Counted from the stretch's first letter, positions 2,099-37,814 are shown. The stretch is 54,256 bases of DNA from Patescibacteria group bacterium (GCA_018823885.1 JAHJHG010000007.1:1-54256); one strand, 5' to 3'. A program made the numbers and translations. Notes: generated by a model not told the origin, from the letters alone.

Positions 2099-2844
2099 AT
2101 CAATTTTCTGTGTTTATATCCTTTCCCTCGCCTTAGCATAAATTTTAAAATTGCTTTGTAAATATAGTAAGGATTGTCCAAAAACAGCAAAGCCTTTCCT
2201 CTTTTTATTAAATTTTTGTGTTTTTGCAAATAGCCTTCATATTCATCTATGAGTTCATGAATATTGAGGCTATTCTTTGCCATATAATCAATTTCTTCCT
2301 CCCAGTAATATCGCGTTTCATTCTCGCCTAGCCAGTCTACTATATGAAACTTAGGAGTATATAGAACTGGATAATTCTTTGGAATAATCTGTAACTTTTT
2401 TTTCTTTTTAGTAAAAAACCACTTATGATGCGCATTGCCCGGCACCCTTCTTGGCCCTGTAAGCCAGTTGGTAATATCAAAATGAGAAAACTCCATATCC
2501 TTTCCCATCGAAGGTGTCGCAATATAACCCCTTTTTGCCACCCTAGACATCTCATCTAATACTAAAAACGGCTGCGACAAATCTTCAAGGGTGTGAGTAC
2601 ATAGACAAAAATCGAACTCATTGTTCTTAAATGGAAGCCTCTCTCTTGTAATGTCAAGCCTGATAAAATTGTCTGCCTCTAGCTTGGAAGAGCCATAAGG
2701 TGCTTCTTCGGGATGAATAATGTCAACCAACGTATGTATTTTAATTTCTTCGTGTTGCTTCATACTCCCCCCAATGTCTAAAACTTTTTCTTTTGAAGAT
2801 ATTCTGAATTTTTTGATAATATGCTTATCTGACAAAGTATTCAT
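2095..2844 (-). CDS. Class I SAM-dependent methyltransferase
   Basis: EKVLDIGGSMKQHEE... and LPFKNNEFDFCLCTHTLEDLSQPFLVLDEMSRVAKRGYIATPS. 4-nt overlap with the downstream GT2. Confidence 0.75.
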   Translation of the reverse strand: MNTLSDKHIIKKFRISSKEKVLDIGGSMKQHEEIKIHTLVDIIHPEEAPYGSSKLEADNFIRLDITRERLPFKNNEFDFCLCTHTLEDLSQPFLVLDEMSRVAKRGYIATPSMGKDMEFSHFDITNWLTGPRRVPGNAHHKWFFTKKKKKLQIIPKNYPVLYTPKFHIVDWLGENETRYYWEEEIDYMAKNSLNIHELIDEYEGYLQKHKNLIKRGKALLFLDNPYYIYKAILKFMLRRGKGYKHRKLI

Positions 2845-4127
2845 GTTTTGGGGCTAGTCCGATAATACCTAATAACTATTGTCCACACATAAACTGCCAA
2901 TATTGTATTAACTAAACCAAACGCTACAGTTGGGGCATAAACGCCAATTTTGGGAATAAGAATCAGATTGATTATGAAAACTGTGAATATCTGGAAAAAC
3001 GAAAAAACTCCAATATAAATCGGTTTTTTCATTGCATAAATTATCGCGGGGACTGCAGGAGCGGTAAGAAGAAAAGGAATCATAGATGCAGCTAGTGCCC
3101 TAAATACTGGAACAGAGGGTAGATATTTTTGTCCGAAAAGTATTGCGATAAAAGGCTCTGCAATAGCAATCCAAAGAATCACGCCGAAAATTACAGGAAC
3201 TATTGCCAATGATGCTTTCTTAATATAAGTTTTTTCGCTCTCTTTGTTTCCGAAGGAGGCCAGTCTGGGAGCCAATACAGCTGAAAAACTTGATGTAAGC
3301 AGCACAATAAACATGGCTAGCCTAGAAGAAATAGAGTAAAAACCCGTCATTGTCGCCCCTGCCATGGCTGCGAGCATCTGAACATCTAGGCGTCCAGATA
3401 CTGAAGAAATCACCCTGTTTACACCCAGCCAACCAGAAAAACGAAGAAGCTTTGAGTAAACATCTTTTTCGACCCTAACAAGCAAAAAGCTCGTTCCCAA
3501 AAAAGCAAAACCCGCCAATATTACAAAAAAAGTACTTAGCGTAAATGCGACAAATGCTTTCGTTAATGTGAGTCCACCTAACATAAAAAAACCAAAAGCT
3601 AACAACAATCTTCCTCCTGCCAAAGACAAATCAACCACGACCGATTGCAAAAAGCGCTTTTGTGCTTGAAGTATCGAAGGGAAAAGAGCCCAAAATAGAA
3701 ATGCTAGAGATAGTCCGCCCACCCAATAGGCTACCGTCGCGTCTCTTGTAGCAAGAAAACTATTAGAAATAAATGGTGCAAAAAGGACAGTAATTAAAAC
3801 CAAAACAGAAAGTGCAATCAACCTCACAACAAGCGATGCTTTCATATACTTCTGGGCCTTTAAAACATCTCCTTTGCGCGAAGCTTTTGCTATAAAGCTA
3901 ATTAGTCCAGACGAAATACCGAGATCAGACAAAGAAGCAATGATCGTGACCAAGTTTACAGCTGCGGAGAATACCCCAAAGTCTGAAACTGATAGTCCTC
4001 TAGCGATTAGAAGAGTAAAAAGAAAACTAAAAAAAGCAGATACTAAATTTCCAATAAATAAAACGTATGTATCTCTCGCGGTCGCGGAAGTAGCCAGTGT
4101 TGCTATCCTCTTATATTGTCTTTTCAC
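2841..4127 (-). CDS. Oligosaccharide flippase (Wzx / polysaccharide biosynthesis protein, MOP superfamily)
   Basis: FIGNLVSAFFSFLFTLLIARGLSVSDFGVFSAAVNLVTIIASLSDLGIS: N-terminal signature of PST/Wzx flippases; multiple TM helices. Confidence 0.88.
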   Translation of the reverse strand: MKRQYKRIATLATSATARDTYVLFIGNLVSAFFSFLFTLLIARGLSVSDFGVFSAAVNLVTIIASLSDLGISSGLISFIAKASRKGDVLKAQKYMKASLVVRLIALSVLVLITVLFAPFISNSFLATRDATVAYWVGGLSLAFLFWALFPSILQAQKRFLQSVVVDLSLAGGRLLLAFGFFMLGGLTLTKAFVAFTLSTFFVILAGFAFLGTSFLLVRVEKDVYSKLLRFSGWLGVNRVISSVSGRLDVQMLAAMAGATMTGFYSISSRLAMFIVLLTSSFSAVLAPRLASFGNKESEKTYIKKASLAIVPVIFGVILWIAIAEPFIAILFGQKYLPSVPVFRALAASMIPFLLTAPAVPAIIYAMKKPIYIGVFSFFQIFTVFIINLILIPKIGVYAPTVAFGLVNTILAVYVWTIVIRYYRTSPKT

Positions 4128-4144
4128 TAGCTAAAATTGTAGCC

Positions 4145-5818
4145 TTAATGCTCCTTCCTCACAAGAAGGACTGCCCTTGCATCTTGTCTTTCATAAGTTT
4201 CTTCTGCTGATACTTGATAAACATCTTTTAGTTCAAAATTGTCAGCAATAAATTCATTTTCCAGATTTTCGGGATTATAAAATATCTGCCTCCATTCTTC
4301 TCCCATATAATAATTTTCATCATCTATAAGATAACTTGTGAGATATATTGCATCAAAAGGAATTTCTTTATCATCTTTAAGGTTTAACTGCTCTGGTTTT
4401 AATGGAAACCAAATCGTTTTTCTTTCTCCATACCAACTTCCCCAGGTATCAAGATTTGTAATAACCACATCATCTAAGCCTGTATTGTCTCGAAGTAGCC
4501 ACGACAATCGAACGTAAGCAGGAGGTTTTCCTTTATTTGTTCTTGCAACCTTAAACCTTGAATCTAGAAAAATCACCCCCAGAGTTTGCCCCACTACAAA
4601 GAAAAATATCAAGAAAGTAGATATCCCTGTAGTTAAGTGCCCTTTTTTTAACCCAGAATATGTTTTTTTTAGATAGCTGAAAATTGACACTTTTGAGTCA
4701 ATCATTTTTTCGACTATCCAAACCAGAGTTGCTACCGCAAAAATATAAACAAAAGGAACAGTTGGATGAAGATATCGGTAAAAAGGAATTGTAATTGCAT
4801 TAACAATAAAGACAATTGCAACCATAAATAAAACCGTTAGTTTTGAAGAATTAATAAGCCTGTTTTTATTGCTTTTGAAAAGACCAATGATAAATAATGC
4901 CCAAAGATATGGAGATGCGATTTCAGGAAGAAGTTTATAAAAATTATACATATTATAAAGAAATTTTTTGATCATGATTCCAATATTGGCCAAAAATAAG
5001 GCTCGTGGATCAATAAGTGTTTCTCTCAAGGCCACATTGGATGGAGCTATTGTTGAATAATGGAGAGATGAAATAAGTCCCCTGTTAAATATTGATACCA
5101 GAAACAATTTATCTCCAAATAATCTGGCAGCAATTTCGTAAATAAGAATAGTTGAAACAACAATAAAAACAATTTTCAAATAAATATAGCGATTGTCCTT
5201 TAGATTTAGATAAAGAAAAAATGCCAAGAGAACAATTAAATATATTGGAGCATGGGGCCTTGCAAGATAAATAGGTATGAAACTTAAAAAACCGAATAGG
5301 TTGGTCCATTTATTATTTAAAATAAAAAGATAAAAAACCAATAACAATCCAAATACAAAAAGCGTTTCGGTTGCTCCAGTTGTCGCATAGTCCAGAAAGT
5401 TAACATTAGCTGCAACTGCCACCGCACTCAAAAACCCGACAAGTCTTCCAAAAAGCTTATTTCCAATTAAATAAACCATTGTTACAATACCTAAATAAAA
5501 AATAGATGAAGTAGTAATTACCGATAAATCTGAGATTCCCAGTGCTTTAAACGACGCTAGAAAAGCAAAAGACATCAGAGGCGACATCCAATATGCAGAA
5601 AAAAGATTGTCTTTTGTTAAATTTAATAAGGCATTTGAAAATGTAGAATAACTAACTCCATAACCTCTACCAGTAGCAATGTTTCTTGCCAAATCTGCGT
5701 ACTTTGCACTGTCAGAAAATGTTAAATACGGAGTTTGAGTAAGTTTGTTGAAGAAACAAAGGAACAAAATACTAAGAAGTAGTAACATAATTACTGAAAA
5801 GTATTTTCTTAGTAGCAT
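4145..5818 (-). CDS. GT39/PMT-like GT-C membrane glycosyltransferase
   Basis: Polytopic; early acidic loop FSDSAKYADLARNIATGRGYGVSY, a DAxxY..A..i..GxG type loop of ArnT/PMT-like enzymes; C-terminal periplasmic domain. Confidence 0.7.
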   Translation of the reverse strand: MLLRKYFSVIMLLLLSILFLCFFNKLTQTPYLTFSDSAKYADLARNIATGRGYGVSYSTFSNALLNLTKDNLFSAYWMSPLMSFAFLASFKALGISDLSVITTSSIFYLGIVTMVYLIGNKLFGRLVGFLSAVAVAANVNFLDYATTGATETLFVFGLLLVFYLFILNNKWTNLFGFLSFIPIYLARPHAPIYLIVLLAFFLYLNLKDNRYIYLKIVFIVVSTILIYEIAARLFGDKLFLVSIFNRGLISSLHYSTIAPSNVALRETLIDPRALFLANIGIMIKKFLYNMYNFYKLLPEIASPYLWALFIIGLFKSNKNRLINSSKLTVLFMVAIVFIVNAITIPFYRYLHPTVPFVYIFAVATLVWIVEKMIDSKVSIFSYLKKTYSGLKKGHLTTGISTFLIFFFVVGQTLGVIFLDSRFKVARTNKGKPPAYVRLSWLLRDNTGLDDVVITNLDTWGSWYGERKTIWFPLKPEQLNLKDDKEIPFDAIYLTSYLIDDENYYMGEEWRQIFYNPENLENEFIADNFELKDVYQVSAEETYERQDARAVLLVRKEH

Positions 5819-8317: not shown

Positions 8318-9508
8318 TTATTCATTTGCTACTTTTCTAATATTCGTATAAAACCTTTCGGCAACCGATTCCCAAGAAAACTTGTCAATTACTATCTTTC
8401 TTCCTCTTTTGCCCATGTCCATTCTTAGGGATTTATTGCTAAGCAATTCTATCACCTTTTCTGCCAATTTCGTTTCATTCTTCGGATCTACAAGAAAACC
8501 CGCTTCACCATCCTTAAACTGTTCTTTTCCTTCCGGGCTCGTAATTACTGGCGTTTCACAAGCCATGGCCTCTTTTACAGACATGCTCATACTCTGCATA
8601 ATACTAGGCTGAACAGCAATTTCCGCTAAACCAGCATATAAAGGCAAGTCGTCATATTTCACAAAACCCAGATATTTTATATTTTTGGTCACTCTCAATT
8701 CTTTCGCCAATAGCTCCATTCTCTCTTTCTCTTCTTTATTATCTATCGTGTATGAAATTAGAAGTAGCAATTTGGGAATTTCTTTTACTATATAGGGCAG
8801 GGCTTTGATAAGGAATGAAGTACCTTTAATCCCAGTAAAATCCGTACTATGGAATACTATTTTTCTATCTTTGTATTTGCTTTTTAGAAAATTTACCTTT
8901 ACTGGTTTAAAAAAATCTGTATTTACCCCTTCGTAAACAACGTTTACATCTTTTCTTCCATAAACTTTCGCTATCCACTTTTTATTAAAGTTGCTTAAAG
9001 TCAAAACTTTTGTTGACTTAATTGTTTGGTTCTTGTCTAAATTATTGTAAAAGGGTTTTATAATTTTTACAAACAATTTTCTTAAAGAAGATAATCCTGC
9101 AATAAAATTCGGATCGTGGAAAAAGGCAAATGGTTCATAACACAGCTGTATCGTTTTGTCTGATAAGCGATTTGCTAAGACATTCAGGGGAAACATGCTT
9201 GAAATAACAACGTCTGAATTTGTTGCTTCCTGTCTGAGATACCATTTCTCTATACGAAGAAAAAACGGAATCAACAGCCAATAAAAAGGATTGTTTGTTG
9301 AAAATCCGAGAAATGTTTTAAATTTTATTCCAGCTTCTGTAAACTCATTCCTAGCAAAACTAGACATCGCCCCTGAGTACAAAACCGTATCGCAATTATA
9401 TTTACTTCCCAGCCTTCTTATTACCTCATAAATATATCTATGGCCACCCATCCAATTTAAAAAATGGGGATGCAACCATAATACTTTATACTTTTTCCTT
9501 TTTTCCAT
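8318..9508 (-). CDS. Glycosyltransferase family 4 (GT-B)
   Basis: N-terminal HPHFLNWMGGHRYIYEVIRRL; C-terminal KYLGFVKYDDLPLYAGLAEIAVQPSIMQSMSMSVKEAMACETPVITSPEGKEQFKDGEAGFLVDP. Confidence 0.9.
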   Translation of the reverse strand: MEKRKKYKVLWLHPHFLNWMGGHRYIYEVIRRLGSKYNCDTVLYSGAMSSFARNEFTEAGIKFKTFLGFSTNNPFYWLLIPFFLRIEKWYLRQEATNSDVVISSMFPLNVLANRLSDKTIQLCYEPFAFFHDPNFIAGLSSLRKLFVKIIKPFYNNLDKNQTIKSTKVLTLSNFNKKWIAKVYGRKDVNVVYEGVNTDFFKPVKVNFLKSKYKDRKIVFHSTDFTGIKGTSFLIKALPYIVKEIPKLLLLISYTIDNKEEKERMELLAKELRVTKNIKYLGFVKYDDLPLYAGLAEIAVQPSIMQSMSMSVKEAMACETPVITSPEGKEQFKDGEAGFLVDPKNETKLAEKVIELLSNKSLRMDMGKRGRKIVIDKFSWESVAERFYTNIRKVANE

Positions 9509-9518
9509 TTTTATTACT

Positions 9519-10865
9519 TCAATAAAATTCCGTTTGTTCGCGTTTAAATATAGTGTTTCCTAAAACTAAACCAATATAATAAATCATCAATGGAAGAAAA
9601 AATATAGACATTCTTCTGGCAGAACCCGGTATTTTCTTCCATTCTACGTTAGTAATACTAAATGCATATGTACCCACAAACAATAGCAACAGATTTACAA
9701 TAATAATTAATAAAAGCACCAAATGCCCCTTTTTGTGTCGATTCTTGATGTCAATAAAGGCAGCGATTAAAAAGAAAAAAAACATTGGGCCCCACGTTAA
9801 AATGATGTTCTGATAAATATATCCTACGACTTCGATAACTCTGTTTAAACTAGCTCCGCTTAATAAAATCTTACTAGCCGAAGATATCTGTCCAGAAGTC
9901 GACATTGTATCTCCAAAAAAGCGACTTAGATGCACTTTCCAAGGCTGCTGAATAATTAAAAATCCTGGAAGATATGTCAATATTGGAAAGATGCTTTTCT
10001 TGTAAATCGAATAAAGCAAAACAACCACGATTCCAGTCAACCAAAATGGTTCTGTGGCCCTAGTCCAAGTACTTAGTCCAATCAGAAGGGAAGATAATAA
10101 TAGATAGTTGTTACTTTTATTAATCACTGCCAAATAAAGGTACAAAGTGCCAGTAACATAAAATACAGTATATGGAAGATTTGTGTAGGCTATTACCGAC
10201 TGCTCAAACAATGTGGGGGTACTTACTAAAACAAACGTGAAAAATATAGCAACGGATATATTTGTATGCCTTCTAAGCACACCATAAAAAATTAAACCAA
10301 AAGACAAATAAAATAGAAAATAGGTGAATTTAGGATTTGAACCTCCGGCCACATATACAATTGTATGAGTCAGGGATGTTAATAGCGGGTAATGAGCAAA
10401 GTAATCAAATTGCTTGGCTACTTGAACGAAATAACCAGTCTGGGCAATAATTTTTGCTCGAAAATCATATAAGGCCAATGCATCCCATACATATACTGGG
10501 TAATATGCATTTATCAATAAACTTATGAAAAATATAAGGCATATCCCAACGCAAATAATTTTTTCATACCTTTTGAGAAATTTAAACTCCTTTAACATGT
10601 TCGGAATTTTAATTTCAATTTTTCTTTTTAGGAAATGGCAAATATATCGAACAAGAACAATGAGTGTTAAAAGTAATATCACTATGCTTCCTAGTGTAAT
10701 TTTGACACCAATCCAGGAATAGAAAAACATCATTAGCGTTGTAAGGCCAAGCCCTAAAATATAGGATAAGCCCAATTTTTCCAAGAAAGGCAAGCCTTCT
10801 TTGATCAAGGATGAAAATATTAAACCGAAATATATAATTAGTATAAAAGTCAATAAGACGAACAT
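9519..10865 (-). CDS. GT-C-type membrane glycosyltransferase (GT39-like), copy B of a duplicated two-gene module
   Basis: Polytopic; YVWDALALYDFRAKIIAQ, SVIAYTNLPYTVFYV, LSTWTRATEPFWL, all shared with the ORF at 11904..13241. Confidence 0.7.
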   Translation of the reverse strand: MFVLLTFILIIYFGLIFSSLIKEGLPFLEKLGLSYILGLGLTTLMMFFYSWIGVKITLGSIVILLLTLIVLVRYICHFLKRKIEIKIPNMLKEFKFLKRYEKIICVGICLIFFISLLINAYYPVYVWDALALYDFRAKIIAQTGYFVQVAKQFDYFAHYPLLTSLTHTIVYVAGGSNPKFTYFLFYLSFGLIFYGVLRRHTNISVAIFFTFVLVSTPTLFEQSVIAYTNLPYTVFYVTGTLYLYLAVINKSNNYLLLSSLLIGLSTWTRATEPFWLTGIVVVLLYSIYKKSIFPILTYLPGFLIIQQPWKVHLSRFFGDTMSTSGQISSASKILLSGASLNRVIEVVGYIYQNIILTWGPMFFFFLIAAFIDIKNRHKKGHLVLLLIIIVNLLLLFVGTYAFSITNVEWKKIPGSARRMSIFFLPLMIYYIGLVLGNTIFKREQTEFY

Positions 10866-10867
10866 AG

Positions 10868-11878
10868 TTATTTTGTAATTTTAATAACTCCCCATAACTC
10901 TTTGTCTTTTACTGCTTCGTAAACATAATTTCCCATTACTTTATCTTTGTCTTTCTCATTTGTTATATAAATTATTTCTTCGGCGGCGACATCAAACTTG
11001 GGCCAACCATGAGTATAGTCGTATTCTGTCCCAATGGTCTCCCCCCAAGCTATTAACACATAATCTATGTCATTCTTTGTGTAATTAGCTCCAGGTAAAT
11101 ATTCTTCGCCATTCAACACTTTTCTTGGATAAAGAAAATAGCGTAAATATGCAGAATTCCCTGTTTGTGGCCAAGGATATCCTTGTGGGGGTATAAGTAT
11201 TGTAGATTCTTCAGGTACGTTTGTTTTTATAAAGCTTGTATATTCATAAAACAAAGGAGTCACCTTCTCGCTCATTTTTAAATCATAAGAAGCAAGGGGA
11301 TTACTCAACATAAAGGAAATATCTTTTTCAATCATCGAGCTTATTCCGATCAAATTATCAGCCGACACCATTAATGCCAATGTGATAATAATCATTTCCG
11401 GTCTAATTTTCTTAATTATATTTTTATTATTCACTATCGTATGAAATCCACGGCGGCTTAGGGCATAACTTATTAGTACAACAAAAAGTGGCCACTTAAG
11501 CTCTGCTGGATGAACATGTAATTTTGAAAAAACAAAGTTTGAATAGTTTAACTTCTCTAGATTCATCAGTGATAAATACAGTAGCCCAAATAAGAAAGCT
11601 AAGCTTAAATTTATCTTGTTCAATTTTTCACTCAAAACACTTTTTTTATACTTTGGATCATATTTTGAAAACAGGCAAGCTGCAATTAATATAAAATAAA
11701 CCCATAGAGGATTTATCAATAGATATTTCTTTGTCACACCTGGATACAACAATGCCTCTCCGATACTGACCAATAATGCAGATGCCCAAATTAGAGGAAA
11801 AATTGAGTAACACAAACTTCTCACTTGTTTTAACAAAACTAGCAGATTTGTTTTATTGTATTTCTGTATATTTTGCAT
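10868..11878 (-). CDS. Membrane protein with C-terminal extracytoplasmic domain (PPQGxxWPxxGN family), copy B partner
   Basis: Several TM segments then VPEESTILIPPQGYPWPQTGNSAYLRYFLYPRKVL; same motif as ORF 13238..14197. Confidence 0.6.
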   Translation of the reverse strand: MQNIQKYNKTNLLVLLKQVRSLCYSIFPLIWASALLVSIGEALLYPGVTKKYLLINPLWVYFILIAACLFSKYDPKYKKSVLSEKLNKINLSLAFLFGLLYLSLMNLEKLNYSNFVFSKLHVHPAELKWPLFVVLISYALSRRGFHTIVNNKNIIKKIRPEMIIITLALMVSADNLIGISSMIEKDISFMLSNPLASYDLKMSEKVTPLFYEYTSFIKTNVPEESTILIPPQGYPWPQTGNSAYLRYFLYPRKVLNGEEYLPGANYTKNDIDYVLIAWGETIGTEYDYTHGWPKFDVAAEEIIYITNEKDKDKVMGNYVYEAVKDKELWGVIKITK

Positions 11879-11903
11879 GTTATTTGTTTATTAACCAAAA
11901 AAC

Positions 11904-13241
11904 TTAGGATCGGACAAACGCGCGCTTAATAATCTCTGAAAAACCAATCTTTCTTTTACCAAGGCCTGTTCTGGTTTCACCAAGGATAATCTTGACATTT
12001 TTAAGAAGCAAATAAGCACTAATAGGCAACAGATAGGTCGAAGATCTCATCAACGATTCCCCCATCTCTACCCACCAATCATACTCTAGAGAAATTAAAT
12101 ATAAACTACCCCAATAGAAAAGTATGCTAAATATTATTACCCATCCAGCGAATATGTCTGCCAACTTCTTTCTTCTGCCAATATTTATGAGGGAAACTAA
12201 ATAGACCAACAAAGTTAAACCCCATGATCGGATTAGGTATAAGGTAACTTTAAATAAGCCTCCTGTAAATATCCCCAAAATTCCCTCAATTATCGTTATG
12301 TGTGAGAAATCAAATATTTGAGGGTTGTCAGCAATGGAACCGACAAAGAATTGCCAAGAATAATATTGCAGAGCACAAAATACAAACAATACTACTATCG
12401 ACAAGGAAATGGTTTTATTTTTTCGCTTAACTAGTGCCGTGAGAAAAAAAGCTATGACTACAGCGATCCATATGGGCTCTAGAAACCTAATAAATTGAGA
12501 CGTTCCAATAAGAACCGTTCCAAAAAACAAAGACCACTTCTCTTTAGACTCAATAAAATGAAGGATTAAGAAAAAACCAAAAATTATATAAAGGGTAAAT
12601 GGCAAGTTCGTATACTCTATTATTGAAGTATAAAAAATATTGGTATTTGCAATCGATAAAAACATTAATAAAGCAGCAAAAAGCACGCCTAAACGTTCTT
12701 TTGTTAGTAAAAATATTCCTAAGCCAAGCAGAATCAGATTAAGTGAATAATAAAAACTTATTGGCGCAATTGAGACGTGTTCATGCCAAAAGCGATGGAC
12801 TATTGATGTGTATGGCGGATAAAGTAGATAGTAATATTGATTCTTGTCATCAAATTTAGAAAGGGATACCATCTCCGAGAAATTCATCCCCTGACTTAAA
12901 AATTTTGCACGAGCATCATAAAGAGCAATAGCATCCCATTCAATAGCACCTTTAGATAGATTCACATAGCTTGAAATAATAATTACTACTAACGAAATTG
13001 CAAATAGGAAAATAGTAATTTTTGCATCTCTCTTGCCTTTTTTATTTGGCACCACAATCCTCCGTTTTTTTTCAAACATGAAAAATATAATCCCACCCAT
13101 AAATAACAGTGAATATGAAATTATATCAATAGTCCCCACAACACTTGTTGCATATGCGGGCTCAAGCTTAAAAAAGTAAAGCTTTACCAAAAACATCAAA
13201 GAAATAAAAATAATGGCAATAGTAAATTTAGTAATCCTCAT
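11904..13241 (-). CDS. GT-C-type membrane glycosyltransferase (GT39-like), copy A of the duplicated two-gene module
   Basis: IEWDAIALYDARAKFLSQ, SIIEYTNLPFTLYII, GTSQFIRFLEPIWI align with ORF 9519..10865. Confidence 0.7.
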   Translation of the reverse strand: MRITKFTIAIIFISLMFLVKLYFFKLEPAYATSVVGTIDIISYSLLFMGGIIFFMFEKKRRIVVPNKKGKRDAKITIFLFAISLVVIIISSYVNLSKGAIEWDAIALYDARAKFLSQGMNFSEMVSLSKFDDKNQYYYLLYPPYTSIVHRFWHEHVSIAPISFYYSLNLILLGLGIFLLTKERLGVLFAALLMFLSIANTNIFYTSIIEYTNLPFTLYIIFGFFLILHFIESKEKWSLFFGTVLIGTSQFIRFLEPIWIAVVIAFFLTALVKRKNKTISLSIVVLFVFCALQYYSWQFFVGSIADNPQIFDFSHITIIEGILGIFTGGLFKVTLYLIRSWGLTLLVYLVSLINIGRRKKLADIFAGWVIIFSILFYWGSLYLISLEYDWWVEMGESLMRSSTYLLPISAYLLLKNVKIILGETRTGLGKRKIGFSEIIKRAFVRS

Positions 13242-14197
13242 TTAAATATAATTTTGTATATTACTATATCGACTTTGTCAGAGATCGTCTCAAGTTCTTC
13301 ATATGTAACTTTATCTTCTTCATTAAAAATAATTGTTTTTTTTGCTCTATTAATCTCGGGCCAGGGCGGTTCTGTAACATATGGAAAATAGGCTTCACCA
13401 ATTTCTTCTACAAAAGCTTGATCATTAATAAGAGCACCACTAATTAAAATTCGCGGAAAAAGAAAATATCTTATAATCGGTTGGTTCCCCACTTCCGGCC
13501 ATTTTGAACCCTGAGGAGGATGAATAATTTTTGCATCCTCGGGAACAATATTCGATAAACTTTCTATATATACATAGCGCCACCCTATTTTGGTTTCATA
13601 ATCTCCTTTGGGAATCCGCAATAATGTTCGTATATTCGAAAAGGGATACAAAGATAGAAGTAACAAAATTACTATACCCAAAGTCGTTAAAACAATGTTT
13701 ATATCTGTTATCCATACACCAGCAATTCCCTTTTTTAAAGTTCTGCTAACCACTACAAATATCAACCCCGCAATTAATCCAAAAACAATGTAATTTGCGG
13801 TGCTTATAAATCTGAGGTCTTCCGGCCGCACACCATAAGTCGAGTACAGGTAATTCGGATAGTAATAAATATCAAAATCCAGAAGCCATCCTGCAATAAA
13901 ATTAACAATAGCCGAGGTTAAAGCTACGACAATTAGGGCTACCGTATGTTCCCGCGACACTTTTTCATCAATAAATCTTTTTATCCACGCCACTATAATG
14001 ACTAGAGAAAACAAAAGAAAAATCGGTTTATAAACTTTATAAGAAAAGGACAATAACAACGCCACAGGGTTATAGATACTAGAAACGTGGGTCATATAAT
14101 TATATTTAAGAACACCTACAAGGGGGTACAACAAAAACATCATCCATGGCACGATAAACGCGAAGGGATTGTAAATATAATTTTTTAATTTTTTCAT
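13238..14197 (-). CDS. Membrane protein with C-terminal extracytoplasmic domain (PPQGxxWPxxGN family), copy A partner
   Basis: VPEDAKIIHPPQGSKWPEVGNQPIIRYFLFPRILI; 4-nt overlap with the downstream GT-C gene. Confidence 0.6.
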   Translation of the reverse strand: MKKLKNYIYNPFAFIVPWMMFLLYPLVGVLKYNYMTHVSSIYNPVALLLSFSYKVYKPIFLLFSLVIIVAWIKRFIDEKVSREHTVALIVVALTSAIVNFIAGWLLDFDIYYYPNYLYSTYGVRPEDLRFISTANYIVFGLIAGLIFVVVSRTLKKGIAGVWITDINIVLTTLGIVILLLLSLYPFSNIRTLLRIPKGDYETKIGWRYVYIESLSNIVPEDAKIIHPPQGSKWPEVGNQPIIRYFLFPRILISGALINDQAFVEEIGEAYFPYVTEPPWPEINRAKKTIIFNEEDKVTYEELETISDKVDIVIYKIIFK

Positions 14198-15804
14198 TCC
14201 AGTTGCCTAATTTCCCAGTAGTAGTTAAAGCTGTCTTCCTTTAGTGGTGGTTCAGAAAGTGTTTTGATGGGCCTTAGGGGAAATTTTTCTCTAAATACAA
14301 GAGGGTCAATTTGTTTAATTTCATAACTCTTACTTTTTATAATTTTGTAGTTTAATTTAATCAACTCCGGTTCTTCGATTGCCAATTCAAACGGTATTCG
14401 GGTAAAAAGATAGCCCGTATTGGGCAAATCACCTTTAAGCCTTTGAGTCCTTACGTCTTTGTTATATAAATATTTTAAGTGTAGTGGAATCTCATAAAGA
14501 ACTTCCCACGTGCCTAGACTGTCCGTCGCATTTATATATAATGTCTCGTTCTCAAGGGCTGAGATTGCCATTACCTGATCTGCCCCAAACTCCAAACATT
14601 GACTATACCAATTTTTATAGTTTATAGTTTTTGCAAGGTTTACGGGGAAACCAACGAAAAATAAATTCGTAAAGATAATTACCAATACTAAAGTGATTAT
14701 TATTTTATACATCGCGGTTTTCCCCCATCTGAAAATTGAAGCCATCAAGTAATCAGCAATTTTTGAAAATAGCACTCCAGTGATAATAGAAAAACAAAAA
14801 ATCGGAACTAAGATATATCTGTCGAGCACAAATCGCCAGGGCAACAATATCGCCGTACTTAGAAAAAAAGCTAGAACCCAGAATAAAAATTGTTCATTTA
14901 TTATCTCTTTTCTCAATTTTTTTGAAAAAAACACTACGGGAAACGTTAGTCCAACAAGTTTTAAAAAGGGTGAAGTCATGTTGCTAATATGTAGCGTGTA
15001 AGCCAAACCATTGCCAAAAAACCTTTCAAAATTAATCTGAAAATTTTCAGCGTAAGCCAGAGTCTCGTTTTGTGGCCTAGCTAGCAATTTCCCTGCAACT
15101 ACAAATAAAACAACAAAGATTGCCAATTTCACAGAAAGCTTCTTGTCACTTTCCTTTTTTATATATAAAAAGCTTATAAACAAAGGGGCAAACACAATAA
15201 CAAACGAGGGTTCTTTAACCGTAATTGCTGCTAGCAACATAAAGACTAAAAGAGAAGTAAAAGCCCGTGGATAAGACTTAATCCTTTTTACACCAGATCT
15301 AGACAAATATATCAGTGAAAAAAACCCAATGAGTAAAATCTGGTACGGCTCTTGAGGACCCAACCTTATTATGTTTTCAGAAAAAGAAAACGAGGAAACA
15401 AATATACCAGACGACAGAATAACCGATAAAGGACCGCCTCCTGCTTGAATAGCTGAAGCCATCAAAAGAAGCAAGAGTAGGTAGCCGACAATATATACCC
15501 TAAATTGATGGTGCAGGATGGGATTTATCCCTAACACTTTGTACAAAATATGTTGTATGCCCCAATATCCAGGCCTGAACCTACCGGATTGCTTTTCAAT
15601 TAAAATCTCCTTAAGGGGAGCACATTCACCGGAATTAAAACATTCATCAAACAAATATGAATTGTGGACAGATTGGCCATCATCTATAAGGGAAAAGTGT
15701 TTGTATGAATGCGGAGAAAGAACAAAAAATGCATAAAGAAAATAAAGCAAAGAAACTATAAATACAACTAACCAATACTTTCTAATTACTTCTTTAATTC
15801 TCAT
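14194..15804 (-). CDS. Polytopic membrane protein, probable GT-C-type glycosyltransferase (TMTC/GT39-like)
   Basis: IDDGQSVHNSYLF...SGRFRPGYWGIQHILYKVLGINPILHHQFRVYIVGYLL; multi-TM with C-terminal soluble domain. Confidence 0.55.
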   Translation of the reverse strand: MRIKEVIRKYWLVVFIVSLLYFLYAFFVLSPHSYKHFSLIDDGQSVHNSYLFDECFNSGECAPLKEILIEKQSGRFRPGYWGIQHILYKVLGINPILHHQFRVYIVGYLLLLLLMASAIQAGGGPLSVILSSGIFVSSFSFSENIIRLGPQEPYQILLIGFFSLIYLSRSGVKRIKSYPRAFTSLLVFMLLAAITVKEPSFVIVFAPLFISFLYIKKESDKKLSVKLAIFVVLFVVAGKLLARPQNETLAYAENFQINFERFFGNGLAYTLHISNMTSPFLKLVGLTFPVVFFSKKLRKEIINEQFLFWVLAFFLSTAILLPWRFVLDRYILVPIFCFSIITGVLFSKIADYLMASIFRWGKTAMYKIIITLVLVIIFTNLFFVGFPVNLAKTINYKNWYSQCLEFGADQVMAISALENETLYINATDSLGTWEVLYEIPLHLKYLYNKDVRTQRLKGDLPNTGYLFTRIPFELAIEEPELIKLNYKIIKSKSYEIKQIDPLVFREKFPLRPIKTLSEPPLKEDSFNYYWEIRQLE

Positions 15805-16571
15805 TGTTTCTTCATTCGTATTTGCACTGAGCCCCCAAGGTATTTCACAATAGGCAGTTTACCAAATAGTGAAAATACTTTGTCAATTCTTATTAACAAG
15901 GGTAAGCTGAACACCTTAAGGGGCCAAATAAACTCAGTCATTGAAACATTAACTTCAAAGGGGGCAAAATAGCCACCAAGCGTTAAGGGATTAATTGCCC
16001 ATTCATCTTTTGAATCTCCTGCCTTTTTCTTTAAATACGGGGTTGATTTAATAAGATAGACCACAGGATTTAAAATATTTGGTTCATAAAAAAAAGCAAT
16101 GCCTCCTGGCTTTAATACCCTCGCAATTTCTATATTTATCTTAGTCAGATAGAGATGGTGTAATACGTAATACCCACAAACCACATCAAAGGTTCCCTTC
16201 TTAAAACCAGTAGAATAAGCGTTTTTTGTGATAAATGATACGTTATCAAGTTCTGCACATTTCCTTCGAGCCACCTTAATAATTTTTTCAGAAATGTCTA
16301 ATGCGACAACGCTTGACTGTGGCAAACGTGATGCTATTGCTTTTGTATACTCACCCGTACCGCATCCAATTTCCAATATTCTTAAACTCTTTTTTCCATA
16401 CTTCGCTGTAACAAAATTAACAAATTCTGTGCATTTTTTATTTATTTTATATTCTGTAAATTTATCTTTATATCCATAATTCTTGTCATAAGTCAAAGCA
16501 ATCCTATTAAAATACTTTCTTTCTTCTACCTCTCTTTTTGTCGATCTTTTTTTGTATATATCTTTTTTCAC
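15801..16571 (-). CDS. Class I SAM-dependent methyltransferase
   Basis: LRILEIGCGTGEYTKAIASRLPQSSVVALDISEKIIKVARRKC...FDVVCGYYVLHHLYLTKINIEIARVLKPGGIAFFYEPN. Confidence 0.9.
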   Translation of the reverse strand: MKKDIYKKRSTKREVEERKYFNRIALTYDKNYGYKDKFTEYKINKKCTEFVNFVTAKYGKKSLRILEIGCGTGEYTKAIASRLPQSSVVALDISEKIIKVARRKCAELDNVSFITKNAYSTGFKKGTFDVVCGYYVLHHLYLTKINIEIARVLKPGGIAFFYEPNILNPVVYLIKSTPYLKKKAGDSKDEWAINPLTLGGYFAPFEVNVSMTEFIWPLKVFSLPLLIRIDKVFSLFGKLPIVKYLGGSVQIRMKKQ

Positions 16572-16573
16572 AA

Positions 16574-17257
16574 TTATCTTTTTAATGCCGCATATAATTT
16601 TATTAGATCGGCAGGTGTTTGAAATATTCTATTTGAAAATCTCGGGGACCTTCTCTCAATAATCTCAACAGGAAGCTCTAAAATATCCAGGCCCGCCCTC
16701 TGTGATCGAATTACTAACTCCGAATCAAAAATTCCCGTTTCGGTTCTACATCTATTTATAATCGGTAGAAGGATGTTTCTTCTAAAAGCTTTAATCCCGT
16801 GAGTATCTGTTCCTTTAAATCCAAAGAAAATCTTTAAAAATAGATTAAAAAAGAATGTGATTAGTTTTCTGTTTAGAGACCTATTGTCCTTAGATGAAGA
16901 AAGTAACTTTGAACCCGTAACTAAATCGTATCCCAATAAGTCAGCGTTTATCAAATCAATAAATTTCTTATCCCAAAAATCAACATTAAATATTACAATA
17001 TATCGCCCCCTTGCTTTTTTAATTCCGCGGATTAGTGCTTTCCCATATGCAGGTTCGAGCAAGCATTCAACCTTAATTCTAAAATTTTTTCGAGCACATG
17101 CTTTTGCGATTTCTAATGTATTATCGCTACTTCCATTTTCAACAACTACAACTTCATAAGTTAATCTGGCTACGTCCAGATAGCTAGTAATATCTTTTAG
17201 AACTGTTGATAACAACCCCTCCTCGTCCTTTGCTGGTAAAATAACGCTTAATTTCAT
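16574..17257 (-). CDS. Glycosyltransferase family 2, DPM1-like (polyprenyl-phosphate-sugar synthase-like)
   Basis: MKLSVILPAKDEEGLLSTVLKDITSYLD...VVVENGSSDNTLEIAKA...GKALIRGIKKARGRYIVIFNVDFWD; no strong C-terminal TM. Confidence 0.83.
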   Translation of the reverse strand: MKLSVILPAKDEEGLLSTVLKDITSYLDVARLTYEVVVVENGSSDNTLEIAKACARKNFRIKVECLLEPAYGKALIRGIKKARGRYIVIFNVDFWDKKFIDLINADLLGYDLVTGSKLLSSSKDNRSLNRKLITFFFNLFLKIFFGFKGTDTHGIKAFRRNILLPIINRCRTETGIFDSELVIRSQRAGLDILELPVEIIERRSPRFSNRIFQTPADLIKLYAALKR

Positions 17258-20818: not shown

Positions 20819-21607
20819 TTACACTAACTTTGCAATTCGTACCGTCAATACCCTTCCCAAATTATGAAGCCTGTGTAAAAAAAGTAAAATCTGGTTGGCC
20901 GTATGCTTCTTGGCAATCTCTAAATCTCTTCTTAAAACACTCATATATTGTGTTGATGAAATGTTGCTTGCCATTAACCTAAAATCTGAAATGTGGTCGT
21001 TCAGAACTTTTGGCATCTCTGTCTTCCCCAACTTTAACCACAAATCATATTCCATTACCACCCCACCAATTCCACTAAATACTCCATTCTTTTCGTAAGC
21101 AGACCTGCTCACGAAAACCGAGGGCTGCATGAGGTAGTTCACAATAAGTAACAAGGGATAATAGTTAATTGTTAAAAGGATATTTTTGTAAAAAGTTACT
21201 ATTCGTGAAATTTCTTTACCTTCCGAATCAATTACCTTCCCTCTTCCTGCAATCCAAAAAGTTTCTGGATTCTCTTGAAAATATTTACCAACTATTAGTA
21301 ACGCCCCTCTTTTATAAACGTCATCTGCGTTAATATATGTAATTATTTCACCCGTTGCTTTTTCCAAACCTCTGTTAATTGCGTCTACTTGTCCTCTGTC
21401 TTTCTTTGAAATCCAATTAATTATTTTAGGATATTTCTTTGCAAACCCCTTAACAATTCCAACCGTTTCATCTGTAGAGGCTCCATCTTGAATAATTACT
21501 TCCAAGTTAGGATACCTCTGGGAAACAATTGATTCTAAGGTTTCTTGGATATATTCCCCCTTGTTATACGAAGGTATAACAATGGAGATTTTTGGAAGAG
21601 ATTTCAT
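20819..21607 (-). CDS. Glycosyltransferase family 2
   Basis: KISIVIPSYNKGEYIQETLESIVSQRYPNLEVIIQDGASTDETVGIV...ITYINADDVYKRGAL. Confidence 0.93.
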   Translation of the reverse strand: MKSLPKISIVIPSYNKGEYIQETLESIVSQRYPNLEVIIQDGASTDETVGIVKGFAKKYPKIINWISKKDRGQVDAINRGLEKATGEIITYINADDVYKRGALLIVGKYFQENPETFWIAGRGKVIDSEGKEISRIVTFYKNILLTINYYPLLLIVNYLMQPSVFVSRSAYEKNGVFSGIGGVVMEYDLWLKLGKTEMPKVLNDHISDFRLMASNISSTQYMSVLRRDLEIAKKHTANQILLFLHRLHNLGRVLTVRIAKLV

Positions 21608-21948
21608 TTTTTACTTTTCTTTTCAACATCCTTCAGTGATTCTCGCCTTACATAATCTTCAAGTTTTTTTTCCATCCGTTTTGTGCTTACATAAGTTCTT
21701 GTGACCATCCCAATTACTAATACAAAACCGCCTACAATCATTAAGTCAAAAAGTCTTGTGATAAAGAAGGTTTTCGCAAAAGTTCGTAATATTTCTGGAA
21801 ATATTACGATAAATATCGTCACTGCCCATATGGTTACCCAAGAAATGATTTCTGTTCTATCAAGCTCCCCTCTTCTGCGATGTAAAATAGCAAAATAAAT
21901 CATCAAAAAGGCAAAAATAATAGCTATAATTTGTAATCCTAAGATCAT
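21604..21948 (-). CDS. DUF2304 family small membrane protein
   Basis: 114 aa, three predicted TM: LQIIAIIFAFLMIYFAILHRRRGELDRTEIISWVTIWAVTIFIVIFPEIL...; ATGA overlaps with GT2 genes on both sides. Confidence 0.82.
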   Translation of the reverse strand: MILGLQIIAIIFAFLMIYFAILHRRRGELDRTEIISWVTIWAVTIFIVIFPEILRTFAKTFFITRLFDLMIVGGFVLVIGMVTRTYVSTKRMEKKLEDYVRRESLKDVEKKSKK

Positions 21949-22604
21949 AGTCGTATTCTCCAGCGCAAAACATCAAAGAGGATGCTGATGGCATCCAAAA
22001 TGGTCACGCCTTTTACTTCATCATAGTATACGGTCTCAACTGGTGCCTCGCAATATTTTAGTCCTGACTTTGCCGTTCTTGCTGCCATTTCCGTTTCAAC
22101 TCCATATCCTTTTGATTCCCAATATATTTTCTCAAAACCTTTCTTGCTTAAACCTCTATAGCCACAAAGTAAATCTGATACATAAATCCCAAACAACAAT
22201 GACACCAACAACGAAGCAAATTTGTTCCCCATATATCTCACAAATGGAACGCCATGATTTAAATTCCTTGAACCAAAAATAACATCAAATTTATCTTTTT
22301 CTAATGCGTCTGTAAAATGAGGCAAATCCTTTACTTTATGTTGTCCATCGGAATCCATAAAAACAACAGCATCGGCTCCCATCCGAAAAGCTGCTTCTGC
22401 GCCTGTTTTCATGGCCGCCCCTTTTCCTAAATTTACTTTGTGGCGGAGTACTGTAATCTTGTATTTACTTGCAACATTAAAGGTCTCGTCTTTTGATCCA
22501 TCATCAACAACAATAATTGGAAAATTTGTTTTTATTACGTCCTTAATAACGTTTCCAATTCTTTCTTCTTCTTGATGTGCTGGAATAACAATAAATATAT
22601 TCAT
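21945..22604 (-). CDS. Glycosyltransferase family 2, DPM1/polyprenyl-phosphate-sugar synthase-like
   Basis: NIFIVIPAHQEEERIGNVIKDV...IIVVDDGSKDETFNVASKYKITVLRHKVNLGKGAAMKTGAEAAFRMGADAVVFMDSDGQHKVKDLPHF. Confidence 0.92.
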   Translation of the reverse strand: MNIFIVIPAHQEEERIGNVIKDVIKTNFPIIVVDDGSKDETFNVASKYKITVLRHKVNLGKGAAMKTGAEAAFRMGADAVVFMDSDGQHKVKDLPHFTDALEKDKFDVIFGSRNLNHGVPFVRYMGNKFASLLVSLLFGIYVSDLLCGYRGLSKKGFEKIYWESKGYGVETEMAARTAKSGLKYCEAPVETVYYDEVKGVTILDAISILFDVLRWRIRL

Positions 22605-27178: not shown

Positions 27179-28831
27179 TTAATTAGCCACAATTTCAAAT
27201 GCAGGCTCTCCATTCGGAGAGTATATCGTTTTGACTATATTTGCGTGCTCTGGTATCTCGTCATCCGTTCCTATAATTAAACTTCTCGGACTATTTGGTG
27301 CTTCTTGGTCGTAGTCTATTGGTCTGAAGTAATATTTGTCAAAATTATCAACTGTCGAAAACCCATATTTGTCCCTCCCAGATAAAACATGATTCTCCTG
27401 AAACTGTGCTGGAGGATACTTCAAGTAAAAAAGCAGCAACATATATGGCTGATCATACCTAGTTGTAATTATCACCTCATCATATTTGCTTTCCTCTTCT
27501 TTTATATACGCTGTAAGTTCTTTTAGTCCATATTGAGACGAATATGGATATTCTTTGGCCATGTGGACCCAATACATATGTAGATATCTTGCAAACTGCC
27601 AGGAAATAATCAAAAAGAATAATACAAAAATTGAATTAAGTAATGCTTTTTTATGGACAATCTTGCGCAACCATTTCGAAAGAGATATCAATCCATAAGC
27701 CGATATGACCACCAAAGGAATTACCATACTCTGGGCTCGAAGCGCATGAGGTGATTGAAAAGTTAGGGCCGCCGCAAAAGGAGCAATAACAAGCCAAAGT
27801 ATAATTGGCGACCAACCTTTCGGTTTCTTAGCAATAAAAACCAAACCAGCCACAACAAACAAAATATCAAAAAGATACATCAATCCTGTTTCGGGCACCC
27901 TATTTCTTTGAATCTCATCACTGGACAAAAATAAAAACTCTCCCCAAAAGTGCCTTGCCCAGTTATCGGCAAACGCTAGGCTATAATTTACCGCTTTATT
28001 GTGAAGTATCCTTGTCGGTAGTGATTGAAAATCAGCATGTTCACCCCTAAGTTCATTTATTCTGGCAAGCGGCCCCGGATCAGCGAAAAGGCCTACTCCT
28101 GCCACCCTAGATGTAACCGCAGGTCCGGCGAAATCTATCATTAGCGGCGTAAGCACAACTAAACCGATAATTCCGGCGATTACGGCTCCCTTAATATTCC
28201 CAATTATTTTCTTTCTATATATTATTGCCAACCCAATGACAAGAAGTGGGACAACAATACGTGCTGCGTGGTATGTGTAAAGAGAAAAAACAAAAAACAA
28301 TGAAGAAAGAATCAGCAGTTTTGGTTTTTTAAAAGATCTTATAAATAACCAAACACCAATAGTCATAAAAAAGGTAGCCGCGTTTACTTCCCACCCGCCG
28401 CGGGAAAAATGAATGTGCCAGGAAGAAATAGCTAGAAAAAAACTCGATACTAGAGCCAGTGTATCGTCTTTAAACAGCTCTTTAACCAACAAATATAGTA
28501 TCAATACTGTGGCCACCCCCAGAAGTGCCCCAGGGATTCTTACTGCCCACTCTGTTAGTCCCAAGAGTTTAACAAATGGCAAAACGAGATAGAAATAACC
28601 TCCTGGCTTAAAATCATTGAAAGATTGAAAATGGACTGGCCAGGGATTGCTATGTTCGTCCAATCCAGTTTCGATTAGGGAATAGGCGTTATATGCAATG
28701 GCGGCCTCATCGGCATTCAGAGCTGGATAATCGGCCAAACGATAAAACCTTAAGAGAAATGCCAAGGCAATAATTGATATCAAGACTATCTTCTTGTACT
28801 TATATATATTTATCTTTTTAAATCTTTTCAT
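27179..28831 (-). CDS. GT39/PMT-family GT-C glycosyltransferase (array paralog 1)
   Basis: LNADEAAIAYNAYSLIETGLDEHSNPWPVHFQSFNDFKPGGYFYL; SSWHIHFSRGGWEVNAATFFMTIG; C-terminal NGEPAFEI. Confidence 0.88.
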   Translation of the reverse strand: MKRFKKINIYKYKKIVLISIIALAFLLRFYRLADYPALNADEAAIAYNAYSLIETGLDEHSNPWPVHFQSFNDFKPGGYFYLVLPFVKLLGLTEWAVRIPGALLGVATVLILYLLVKELFKDDTLALVSSFFLAISSWHIHFSRGGWEVNAATFFMTIGVWLFIRSFKKPKLLILSSLFFVFSLYTYHAARIVVPLLVIGLAIIYRKKIIGNIKGAVIAGIIGLVVLTPLMIDFAGPAVTSRVAGVGLFADPGPLARINELRGEHADFQSLPTRILHNKAVNYSLAFADNWARHFWGEFLFLSSDEIQRNRVPETGLMYLFDILFVVAGLVFIAKKPKGWSPIILWLVIAPFAAALTFQSPHALRAQSMVIPLVVISAYGLISLSKWLRKIVHKKALLNSIFVLFFLIISWQFARYLHMYWVHMAKEYPYSSQYGLKELTAYIKEEESKYDEVIITTRYDQPYMLLLFYLKYPPAQFQENHVLSGRDKYGFSTVDNFDKYYFRPIDYDQEAPNSPRSLIIGTDDEIPEHANIVKTIYSPNGEPAFEIVAN

Positions 28832-30477
28832 AATGGCTCTATTATTCTAAAAGCCGGGTTAGTATTCAAATAGTTAATTTCCTTAATTAATTTAAACTGC
28901 TCCGGATCACTGGAATCTTCAACCGGAATCCTTATTGTGTCGGCAACAAATAAACTTCCTTTTTCACCCCGATTAACTGACCAGTCAATCGGCGCAAAAT
29001 ATATATTATCTAATCTTTCTACTTGCCCCACATCTCCTACCGCACTTTCTTTGAGTTTTGCTTGAGCCTGATACTTTGCTGGACTGTATTTTTGATAAAA
29101 CAGGAAATAAATATATGGTTGAGCATAGGATTGCTGCACCTTAATAGTTTCATAATTAGATTGAATAGGAGTAACTGTTCCTACAATTTGTTTGTAACCA
29201 TACTCCCAACATTTTGAATCATGTTTTGACAGATGGACAAAATATGCGTCTAGATAATAAACATAATTGAGCAAATATATTACCGCCAATCCTCCCAAAA
29301 TAATTTTTTTGTGTTTCACAATTTTGTTAAATAGAAAAAGTAATCCAAACGAAGACATTAGCACCAAGGGAATTACCATGTTGTAACTTCTTACTGCATG
29401 TACCTGATCTCTAGATAAAGCGGCAGGAAGAGGAGCAAGCAACAACCATAGAAAGATAAATATCGATTCTTTTGACCTGGAACGAACCAGAACAATAAAC
29501 CCAGAAATAATCAAAAGCAAATCTGTGAATATAAACATGCCTGTATAGGGAGCCGAATGTCTTGGATTTTGCCAATCGCCCTCAAAGAATAAGAATCTAC
29601 CAGTAAAGTGATTAAACCATCGACCCAAAACTCCCCTTGTAAAATTTACTCCTTCGGAATGAAACAAGTAATAGCTTAAGCCCCCTATTTTTTCCTCACC
29701 CTGATCAAGAAACTGTTGAATATAATCAGTGGGCCTTGGATATGAGAAAACACTGAAAACCTCAAGTCTTCCTGTTTTGCCTTGGAAAAAACCAAGCAAT
29801 ATTGGAAGTGATACCAACAATCCTATTAAAAAAGCAGTTGCTAGCGTTTTCTTCTCGAATTTAATCACGTCTTTAAAATATATTATTCCCAAAACAACCA
29901 ACACTATTGCCGTTGAAAGCTTCGCCCCCTGATATGTAATAAGTGTTAGAGCAAAGAAAAAGGCCGAATAAAATAAATGTTTTTGTTTTTCAATTGCTTT
30001 TACAAAAAAGTAGATACCAAGAAGGGTGAGGGTTAGAGAAACATTAATTTCCCATGCGCCCCTAGAAAAGTGGATATGCCAGGGATTAATTGCAAGCAAA
30101 AAACTTGAGACAAGGGCTATTTTTTTGTCTTTAAAAAACTGCAAACCAATCATATACATCAAAAATACAGCCAATATTCCAAATGCAGCACTAGGCAGTC
30201 TTACAGCAAATTCTGTCAGTCCTAAAACAGCCACAGCGGGTACGGTCAAATAGACATAAAGACCGGGCTTAAAATCACCAAAGGATTTAAAGATAATCGG
30301 CATAATCTTTCCGTATTCATCTTTACCCGTTTTTAAAATAGAGTAGGCGTTATAACCCAAAGAAGCCTCATCGGGTGCAAGATGAGGAGGAGTACTCCCC
30401 AAATTCCACAATCTCAACACCGACGCCAAAAGCAAAATAACAAAAATTATGTTCTTCTTATTTAATAGTTTTTTCAT
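28828..30477 (-). CDS. GT39/PMT-family GT-C glycosyltransferase (array paralog 2)
   Basis: LAPDEASLGYNAYSILKTGKDEYGKIMPIIFKSFGDFKPGLYVYL; NPWHIHFSRGAWEINV; C-terminal TNPAFRI. Internal ATG at 30477 (MKKLLNKKNIIF) preferred to the 30501 start. Confidence 0.88.
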   Translation of the reverse strand: MKKLLNKKNIIFVILLLASVLRLWNLGSTPPHLAPDEASLGYNAYSILKTGKDEYGKIMPIIFKSFGDFKPGLYVYLTVPAVAVLGLTEFAVRLPSAAFGILAVFLMYMIGLQFFKDKKIALVSSFLLAINPWHIHFSRGAWEINVSLTLTLLGIYFFVKAIEKQKHLFYSAFFFALTLITYQGAKLSTAIVLVVLGIIYFKDVIKFEKKTLATAFLIGLLVSLPILLGFFQGKTGRLEVFSVFSYPRPTDYIQQFLDQGEEKIGGLSYYLFHSEGVNFTRGVLGRWFNHFTGRFLFFEGDWQNPRHSAPYTGMFIFTDLLLIISGFIVLVRSRSKESIFIFLWLLLAPLPAALSRDQVHAVRSYNMVIPLVLMSSFGLLFLFNKIVKHKKIILGGLAVIYLLNYVYYLDAYFVHLSKHDSKCWEYGYKQIVGTVTPIQSNYETIKVQQSYAQPYIYFLFYQKYSPAKYQAQAKLKESAVGDVGQVERLDNIYFAPIDWSVNRGEKGSLFVADTIRIPVEDSSDPEQFKLIKEINYLNTNPAFRIIEPL

Positions 30478-33776: not shown

Positions 33777-34408
33777 AATGCCCTACTTATGATAAACACA
33801 CCATATATGATTAGTAATCCGATTATTAAATTCCTTTTCTTGCATTCATTAATAAGAAGCTCTATCCCCTGCGAAGCAATATAAATATAAAGCAATAGGA
33901 CTGGAAAAAGAAAAACAAGATTCCTTGCCCCAGCCAAAAACCCAAAAAGAGGAAAAGCTAATAATAAGAAAAGTGGCTTAAATTCTTTTTGTTTCGCCAG
34001 TTTAATCAATCCAAAAACCCAAAAAACAAACGCAAAAAAGGGTACTGGTTCAACTCCTGGAGGTGAAAATTCTGTACCATCACCAGCTTGAAAATATATC
34101 CTTGGCGACAAGAGAGAAAGGTATTCAAAAGAGTTGTCAACCAAAACCATTGCTTTGTTGTAATATAGTCGGGAAATTAATTCTTCCTTTTCTTCGCTAA
34201 AAGCATTCCATCTCATCTCCTCAACGTATCTCAGCTTCTCATCTGAAAATATCGAAGTAACTTTGCGTTTGACATTAATAGGAAAATTTACCAGCTCTAT
34301 CGAAGCGTTAATTGGTTGAAAAATTACCCACCAAAACCCTGGAGACAAAAGTAATAAAAGAAAAAAATATATTCTCTTGTGAAGGATTTCACTTATTTTT
34401 ATGTGCAT
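33761..34408 (-). CDS. Truncated GT39-like membrane protein (mid-domain only; lacks N-terminal catalytic loop and C-terminal domain)
   Basis: RLYYNKAMVLVDNSFEYLSLLSPRIYFQAGDGTEFSPPGVEPVPFFAFVFWVFGLIKL matches the middle of neighbours (e.g. RLMHNKVLFVARRFMSNYLLYFSPQFLFTHGPAEATYGMIPGRGMLYWFELPFLAWFVYSL). No DE loop or HFSRG motif. Confidence 0.65.
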   Translation of the reverse strand: MHIKISEILHKRIYFFLLLLLSPGFWWVIFQPINASIELVNFPINVKRKVTSIFSDEKLRYVEEMRWNAFSEEKEELISRLYYNKAMVLVDNSFEYLSLLSPRIYFQAGDGTEFSPPGVEPVPFFAFVFWVFGLIKLAKQKEFKPLFLLLAFPLFGFLAGARNLVFLFPVLLLYIYIASQGIELLINECKKRNLIIGLLIIYGVFIISRALWLTC

Positions 34409-37806: not shown

Positions 37807-37814
37807 TCTCTTGA

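Follow-up and report, generated by a model that had tools for sequence, protein, structure and literature searches.

Surface glycans and many protein glycans are built by GT-C enzymes, and those of bacteria are, to our knowledge, single chains or dimers of whole enzymes. The locus studied here raises the question whether one GT-C can be made of two chains. The window, a stretch of 54,256 nt on one contig of a Patescibacteria genome (756 kb, 98% complete), carries two gene pairs on its minus strand, each consisting of a partner gene (B) followed by a gene for a GT-C membrane subunit (A). In pair 1, B1 (336 aa; 10868-11878) and A1 (448 aa; 9519-10865) are spaced by 2 nt, and in pair 2, B2 (319 aa; 13238-14197) and A2 (445 aa; 11904-13241) overlap by 4 nt (ATGA). 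These genes belong to a minus-strand run in the order GT2, methyltransferase, C, B2, A2, B1, A1. The GT2 (16574-17257, PF00535) is likely a polyprenyl-phosphate-sugar synthase supplying the donor, and the methyltransferase (15801-16571) was recognized by Pfam. Protein C (14194-15804) is GT-C-like and single-chain, with a C-terminal domain of its own; it overlaps B2 by ATGA and has homologues directly upstream of B-A in loci L021, L022, L025, and L058. A1 is followed by a GT4, a DegT aminotransferase, a GNAT protein, a methyltransferase, a GT-C, and a Polysacc_synt flippase. The run with both pairs is a surface glycan cluster, and the nearest named relatives with the module are Candidatus Woesebacteria.

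A sequence-only reading had described the four ORFs as a two-gene module duplicated in tandem. The two pairs are indeed homologous, with 26% identity between A1 and A2 over 400 aa (E 1e-18) and 28% between B1 and B2 over 217 aa (E 3e-16), but the duplication is not recent. In trees, pair 1 and pair 2 fall into separate, well supported deep clades with other genera, and for this reason a recent tandem duplication was rejected. The well supported clades are common to the A and partner-domain trees, among them one uniting window pair 1 with genomes G028, G044, and G017 and another uniting window pair 2 with G044, G017, and G155. Both pairs are thus present in two other genera besides the window genome, which indicates that they are paralogues of long standing whose tandem arrangement has been maintained in at least three genera. 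An independent, more recent tandem duplication of the partner and GT-C unit is found in L063 (G340). Across 31 pairs, the distance matrices of A and B are correlated (r=0.75; 0/2000 permutations reach that value). As judged from these distances, A and B are co-inherited; the correlation does not speak of contact.

The motifs named earlier for A are real and conserved far outside the window. W127, D128, Y133, and D134 are invariant in 13 A sequences and, when 24 sequences are aligned, D128 is still invariant and D134 is conserved in at least 90%. In A1, these residues lie in the extracytoplasmic loop motif WDALALYDFRAK (10452-10487, minus strand), in which the invariant alignment columns make D128 the candidate catalytic Asp. 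The corresponding motif of A2, WDAIALYDARAK (12903-12938, minus strand), was located by A1/A2 homology and the A-family alignment. The alignments thus point to a conserved acidic residue in the extracytoplasmic loop of A, as the GT-C class requires, and by analogy D128 would be the catalytic base. An AlphaFold2 model of A1, made with a 24-sequence alignment, has a pLDDT of 92 and a pTM of 0.93. When this model was compared with the PDB using Foldseek, the top 20 matches were all GT-C enzymes or OST complexes, including ArnT with bound undecaprenyl phosphate (TM 0.47), with probabilities of 0.77-1.00 and E-values of only 0.02-0.5, so that the fold assignment leans on match probability and on the uniform class of the top matches. 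A is therefore predicted to have a GT-C membrane fold. By the PMT_2 profile (PF13231), A1 scores 24 bits against a cut-off of 26.1 and A2 has no match, and the relative in L085 passes with 27.9 bits. Profile searches of A and of B against the PDB gave no meaningful matches.

Partner B is a modular protein. Its YPR motif, also named earlier, is conserved outside the window, with P251 and R252 present in at least 90% of 28-30 partners. The remark that the partner fits no named family holds as well, as B has no match above cut-off in Pfam or NCBIfam, and hence no assignment to an unrelated family there. A search of 382 genomes of the class with a B profile returned full-length B together with proteins that have its N-terminal half only or its C-terminal half only. 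B as a whole was rejected as the conserved partner, the constant part being the C-terminal half only. This half consists of one TM and ∼110-150 aa outside the membrane, with the motif FIKxNTPExAxIxxPP...YFLYPR. As delimited by partner alignments, it comprises in B1 the last TM and a predicted extracytoplasmic α/β domain (10868-11401, minus strand) with the motif VPEESTILIPPQGYPWPQTGNSAYLRYFLYPR (11123-11218, minus strand); the motif of B2 is VPEDAKIIHPPQGSKWPEVGNQPIIRYFLFPR (13451-13546, minus strand), placed by B1/B2 homology and the partner alignment. Minimal partners measure 141-208 aa and comprise a single TM and a tail of 115-154 aa; those from an Aenigmatarchaeon, Bacteroidales, Anaerolineales, Bacteroidetes, and Calditrichaeota have 142-208 aa, and a GT-C follows every one of them. 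Because the partner is minimal in other phyla and the GT-C always follows, the constant unit is the partner domain plus the GT-C.

The remaining part of B1 (11402-11878, minus strand) is an optional N-terminal TM module (NYxNYVFSxxHxxP), missing from minimal partners and present in other proteins. Other proteins have it without an A-family GT-C, namely membrane proteins carrying a GEEISWGQR motif (L067, L068, L071, L072, and L074) and an LtaS-like sulfatase protein (L070, PF00884). In L027 (9339-11393) and L028 (8280-10340), it is joined to a C-like protein, and the fusion comes directly before a B-A pair. By its distribution in these sequences, this module is a separate unnamed domain. A Foldseek search of the PDB with the B1 model (pLDDT 88) gave no significant match; the best of the PDB, chain F of yeast OST, was rejected as a structural match of B (E 0.24, rmsd 16).

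How strict the pairing is was assessed on 35 distinct A-family GT-C genes, counted at E < 1e-18 in the context loci (a 36th listed A row represents the second half of one GT-C that is split between two frames). An HMM-detected partner lies immediately upstream of 33 of the 35, a count biased upward in that most of these loci were fetched through B. The two genes mostly overlap or are separated by no more than 10 nt, and two further pairs are found in L054 and at a contig end in L083. In the less biased view given by A-profile searches, all strong A matches are paired except L132, an A relative of 349 aa without a partner, and L097, in which the 346-aa upstream neighbour has a terminal domain with LLRYLVYP missed by the partner HMM. 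The latter locus (8802-9842, G550) holds a distant A-like GT-C; the protein encoded ahead of it combines a signal-like N-terminus, a TM, and this C-terminal domain, and pairing may thus reach past HMM detection. Conversely, all 35 partner domains seen, in Patescibacteria, Bacteroidota, Calditrichaeota, Chloroflexota, and an Aenigmatarchaeon, stand immediately upstream of an A-family GT-C, in line with the co-occurrence expected by the sequence-only reading. Among partner homologues, only the optional N-terminal TM half of B was found without an A-family GT-C.

Outside the class, the module is sporadic, with 2/297 Bacteroidota and 1/251 Chloroflexota genomes, one per set being the seed. Together with adjacency in the same order over phyla, this sporadic presence argues that the pair travels as a unit. 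The search of contigs used a closer 5-row subset of the 13-row alignment. No chain with a direct A-to-B fusion was seen, and a search of plasmids with B1 gave no match. In the Aenigmatarchaeota pair (L082, 6524-7911), the GT-C is read from two frames that overlap, apparently because the record contains a frameshift.

The proposal that these genes encode a GT-C split from its extracytoplasmic domain gains support from single-chain relatives, since the A HMM stops one TM short of their end. In the single-chain GT-C of L123 (551 aa), which is related to the PMT_2-matching L119 and L128, the A HMM spans residues 8-408 and the remainder consists of one TM and a 114-aa tail. A itself ends 9-24 residues past its own last TM. 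Hence, A stops where single-chain relatives add a TM and a tail, and the minimal partner has precisely those, which argues for a split enzyme; in predicted topology, A and B together equal a single-chain relative. No partner genes were seen in the flanks examined of the single-chain relatives L119-L130 (mostly 500-560 aa). Sequence comparison points the same way. In single-chain proteins of 620-660 aa, the partner-domain HMM picks out the region of the last TM and tail, with E 5.7e-6 per genome for the 620-aa protein of G018 and weaker matches in G096 (E 3.5e-4) and G015 (E 0.003); these proteins have no Pfam GT-C label. Against single-chain C-tails of the PMT_2 type, the partner profile aligns in the expected register but weakly (hhalign probability 8.5%; score 24.4, versus 12.9 ± 2.3 for shuffled columns), and the tails of the window-type 550-aa GT-Cs gave no match to it. 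Homology of the partner domain to single-chain C-terminal tails is therefore suggestive, and the topological complement is the stronger argument for a split. Because the C-terminal piece is encoded before the N-terminal one, simple fission does not account for the split; this order would be explained if a single-chain gene had been duplicated in tandem and the copies had then undergone reciprocal loss.

The genes around the module bear on topology and donor supply. GtrB-type sll0501, dolichol-P-mannose synthase, and ArnC are among the best PDB matches of the GT2 in the window run. L021, L025, and L028 each have a close homologue of this GT2 shortly before the module, and in L106 another GT2 directly follows the pair. 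The L021 homologue (12080-13537) is a 485-aa protein joining GT2 and methyltransferase, which are separate adjacent genes in the window. This GT2 linkage is circumstantial evidence that a polyprenyl-phosphate sugar is the donor for A. In a Bacteroides plasmid of human stool origin (8.3 kb, mobilizable; L131, NZ_CP143868.1), a GT2-partner fusion is followed by a GT-C (2200-5001). The two genes amount to a plasmid-borne surface glycosylation cassette, and L131 is the only plasmid of its sort found in PLSDB. The GT2 of the fusion resembles polyprenyl-phosphate-sugar synthases and has one in-frame stop in its record. GT2 enzymes act in the cytoplasm and a single TM follows the GT2 in this fusion, so the partner domain lies outside the membrane; the fusion also ties the partner to donor supply. 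In most minimal partners, the flank N-terminal to the TM is positively charged.

Given this pairing, co-inheritance, and complementary topology, we consider it probable that each pair is one polyprenyl-phosphate-sugar-dependent GT-C in two chains, with the partner as its outer C-terminal domain. A would form the membrane bundle that carries out catalysis, its outer loop WDxxxLYDxRAK bearing the Asp. B would provide what single-chain relatives have on one polypeptide, namely the last TM helix and the C-terminal domain outside the membrane; in the window genome, B also has the optional additional TM module at its N-terminus. We infer that B, translated just ahead of A and inserted with its domain outside, would dock on A in a physical complex and complete or cap the acceptor side of the active site. 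The GT2 of the gene run would load undecaprenyl phosphate with sugar, a flippase would turn the Und-P-sugar over, and A+B would catalyze passage of the sugar to an acceptor in a surface glycan outside the membrane. The two pairs and protein C would then make three different additions.

Alternatively, B might be an accessory subunit of independent origin that stabilizes or activates an otherwise complete GT-C, as PIG-X/Pbn1 does for PIG-M/Gpi14. Eukaryotes do share the layout, in that a catalytic GT-C is joined by a partner with one TM and a large luminal domain and both proteins are essential, and in sequence the partner domain shows modest homology to the C-tails of single chains. However, A lacks exactly the TM and tail that the minimal partner has, the partner HMM matches the terminal TM-tail of single-chain proteins, and the TM, which is C-terminal in PIG-X, here comes ahead of the domain, an order shared with single-chain GT-Cs; every minimal partner that was scored has its TM N-terminal to the domain, rather than following an N-terminal luminal domain. 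We therefore regard an accessory origin as unlikely. B as a specificity or scaffold subunit, which would bind or present the acceptor or recruit cluster enzymes to a catalytically complete A, appears still more doubtful. Its variable N-terminal modules, including the fused GT2 of L131, resemble docking units, and other GT-C enzymes have added glycan-binding domains (PMC11127046), yet the constant domain is small and motif-conserved, and it goes with a single GT-C family, not with changing partners; moreover, such a role is compatible with a split enzyme and not exclusive of it. That A and B are unrelated membrane proteins of glycan clusters, kept together through operon inheritance, is already disfavoured and seems very improbable. 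Both do occur in glycan clusters, where genes shuffle, but the same order recurs, if sporadically, across several bacterial phyla and an archaeon, the genes overlap, and the A and B trees are congruent.

Among known systems, the nearest analogue of a GT-C in two chains, and the precedent for two subunits, would be the eukaryotic PIG-M/PIG-X (Gpi14/Pbn1), GPI mannosyltransferase I, in which a GT-C has an essential single-TM partner with a luminal domain (PMC9306709, PMC12653191). The likeness is one of layout, i.e. a GT-C catalytic subunit, a single-TM partner with an extracytoplasmic domain, and a lipid-phosphate-sugar donor. In the eukaryotic partner, however, the TM is C-terminal and the domain is a large β structure, whereas in the module the TM precedes a small α/β domain. 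Single-chain PMT_2-type GT-Cs (PF13231) from related genomes and ArnT share the GT-C fold, and their membrane part aligns end to end with A; they differ in that their one chain also includes the last TM and outer tail and no partner gene accompanies it, and the window A proteins are under the PMT_2 cut-off. Three-component systems combine a polyprenyl-P-sugar synthase and a flippase with a GT-C that acts outside the membrane (PMC8035078, PMC11127046). As in these systems (GtrA/GtrB/Gtr, CsbB-GtcA-YfhO, and GT136), a GT2 precedes the window module, but their GT-C is one polypeptide and the module has two. DUF6798 (PF20604) matches the FIKxNTPExAxIxxPP stretch below threshold in two partners (L085 and L084, 18.3 and 16.4 bits against a cut-off of 26.9, over 61 residues only) and in the three single-chain proteins matched by the partner HMM; it has no match in the window proteins.

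A literature search, with most subscription journals outside its scope, found no paper on a split or two-subunit bacterial GT-C, and the pairing seems undescribed so far. With little more than even confidence, we propose that it represents an ancient, widespread prokaryotic class of GT-C in several bacterial phyla and archaea, an obligate heterodimer whose outer domain would come from a separate upstream gene, the partner gene having repeatedly gained modules, including a donor-making enzyme. A split GT-C would account for a class of "hypothetical" genes and, if this reading is true, annotators should be warned that A-type GT-C genes are incomplete without the upstream gene. In eukaryotic GPI synthesis, what the non-catalytic partner of a GT-C does is regarded as an open question (PMC9306709). 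With a small bacterial GT-C that is split by nature, partner roles could be tested by mixing and swapping subunits.

Two further features of the window concern its other glycosylation genes. At 20819-22604, a small DUF2304 membrane protein (21604-21948) is encoded between two GT2 genes, with a 4-nt overlap on either side, and may be a GtrA-like donor flippase unit. In addition, seven proteins of 549-577 aa with the look of single-chain GT-Cs are encoded in a cluster at 27179-43251, several by overlapping genes, an unusual number for a 756-kb genome.
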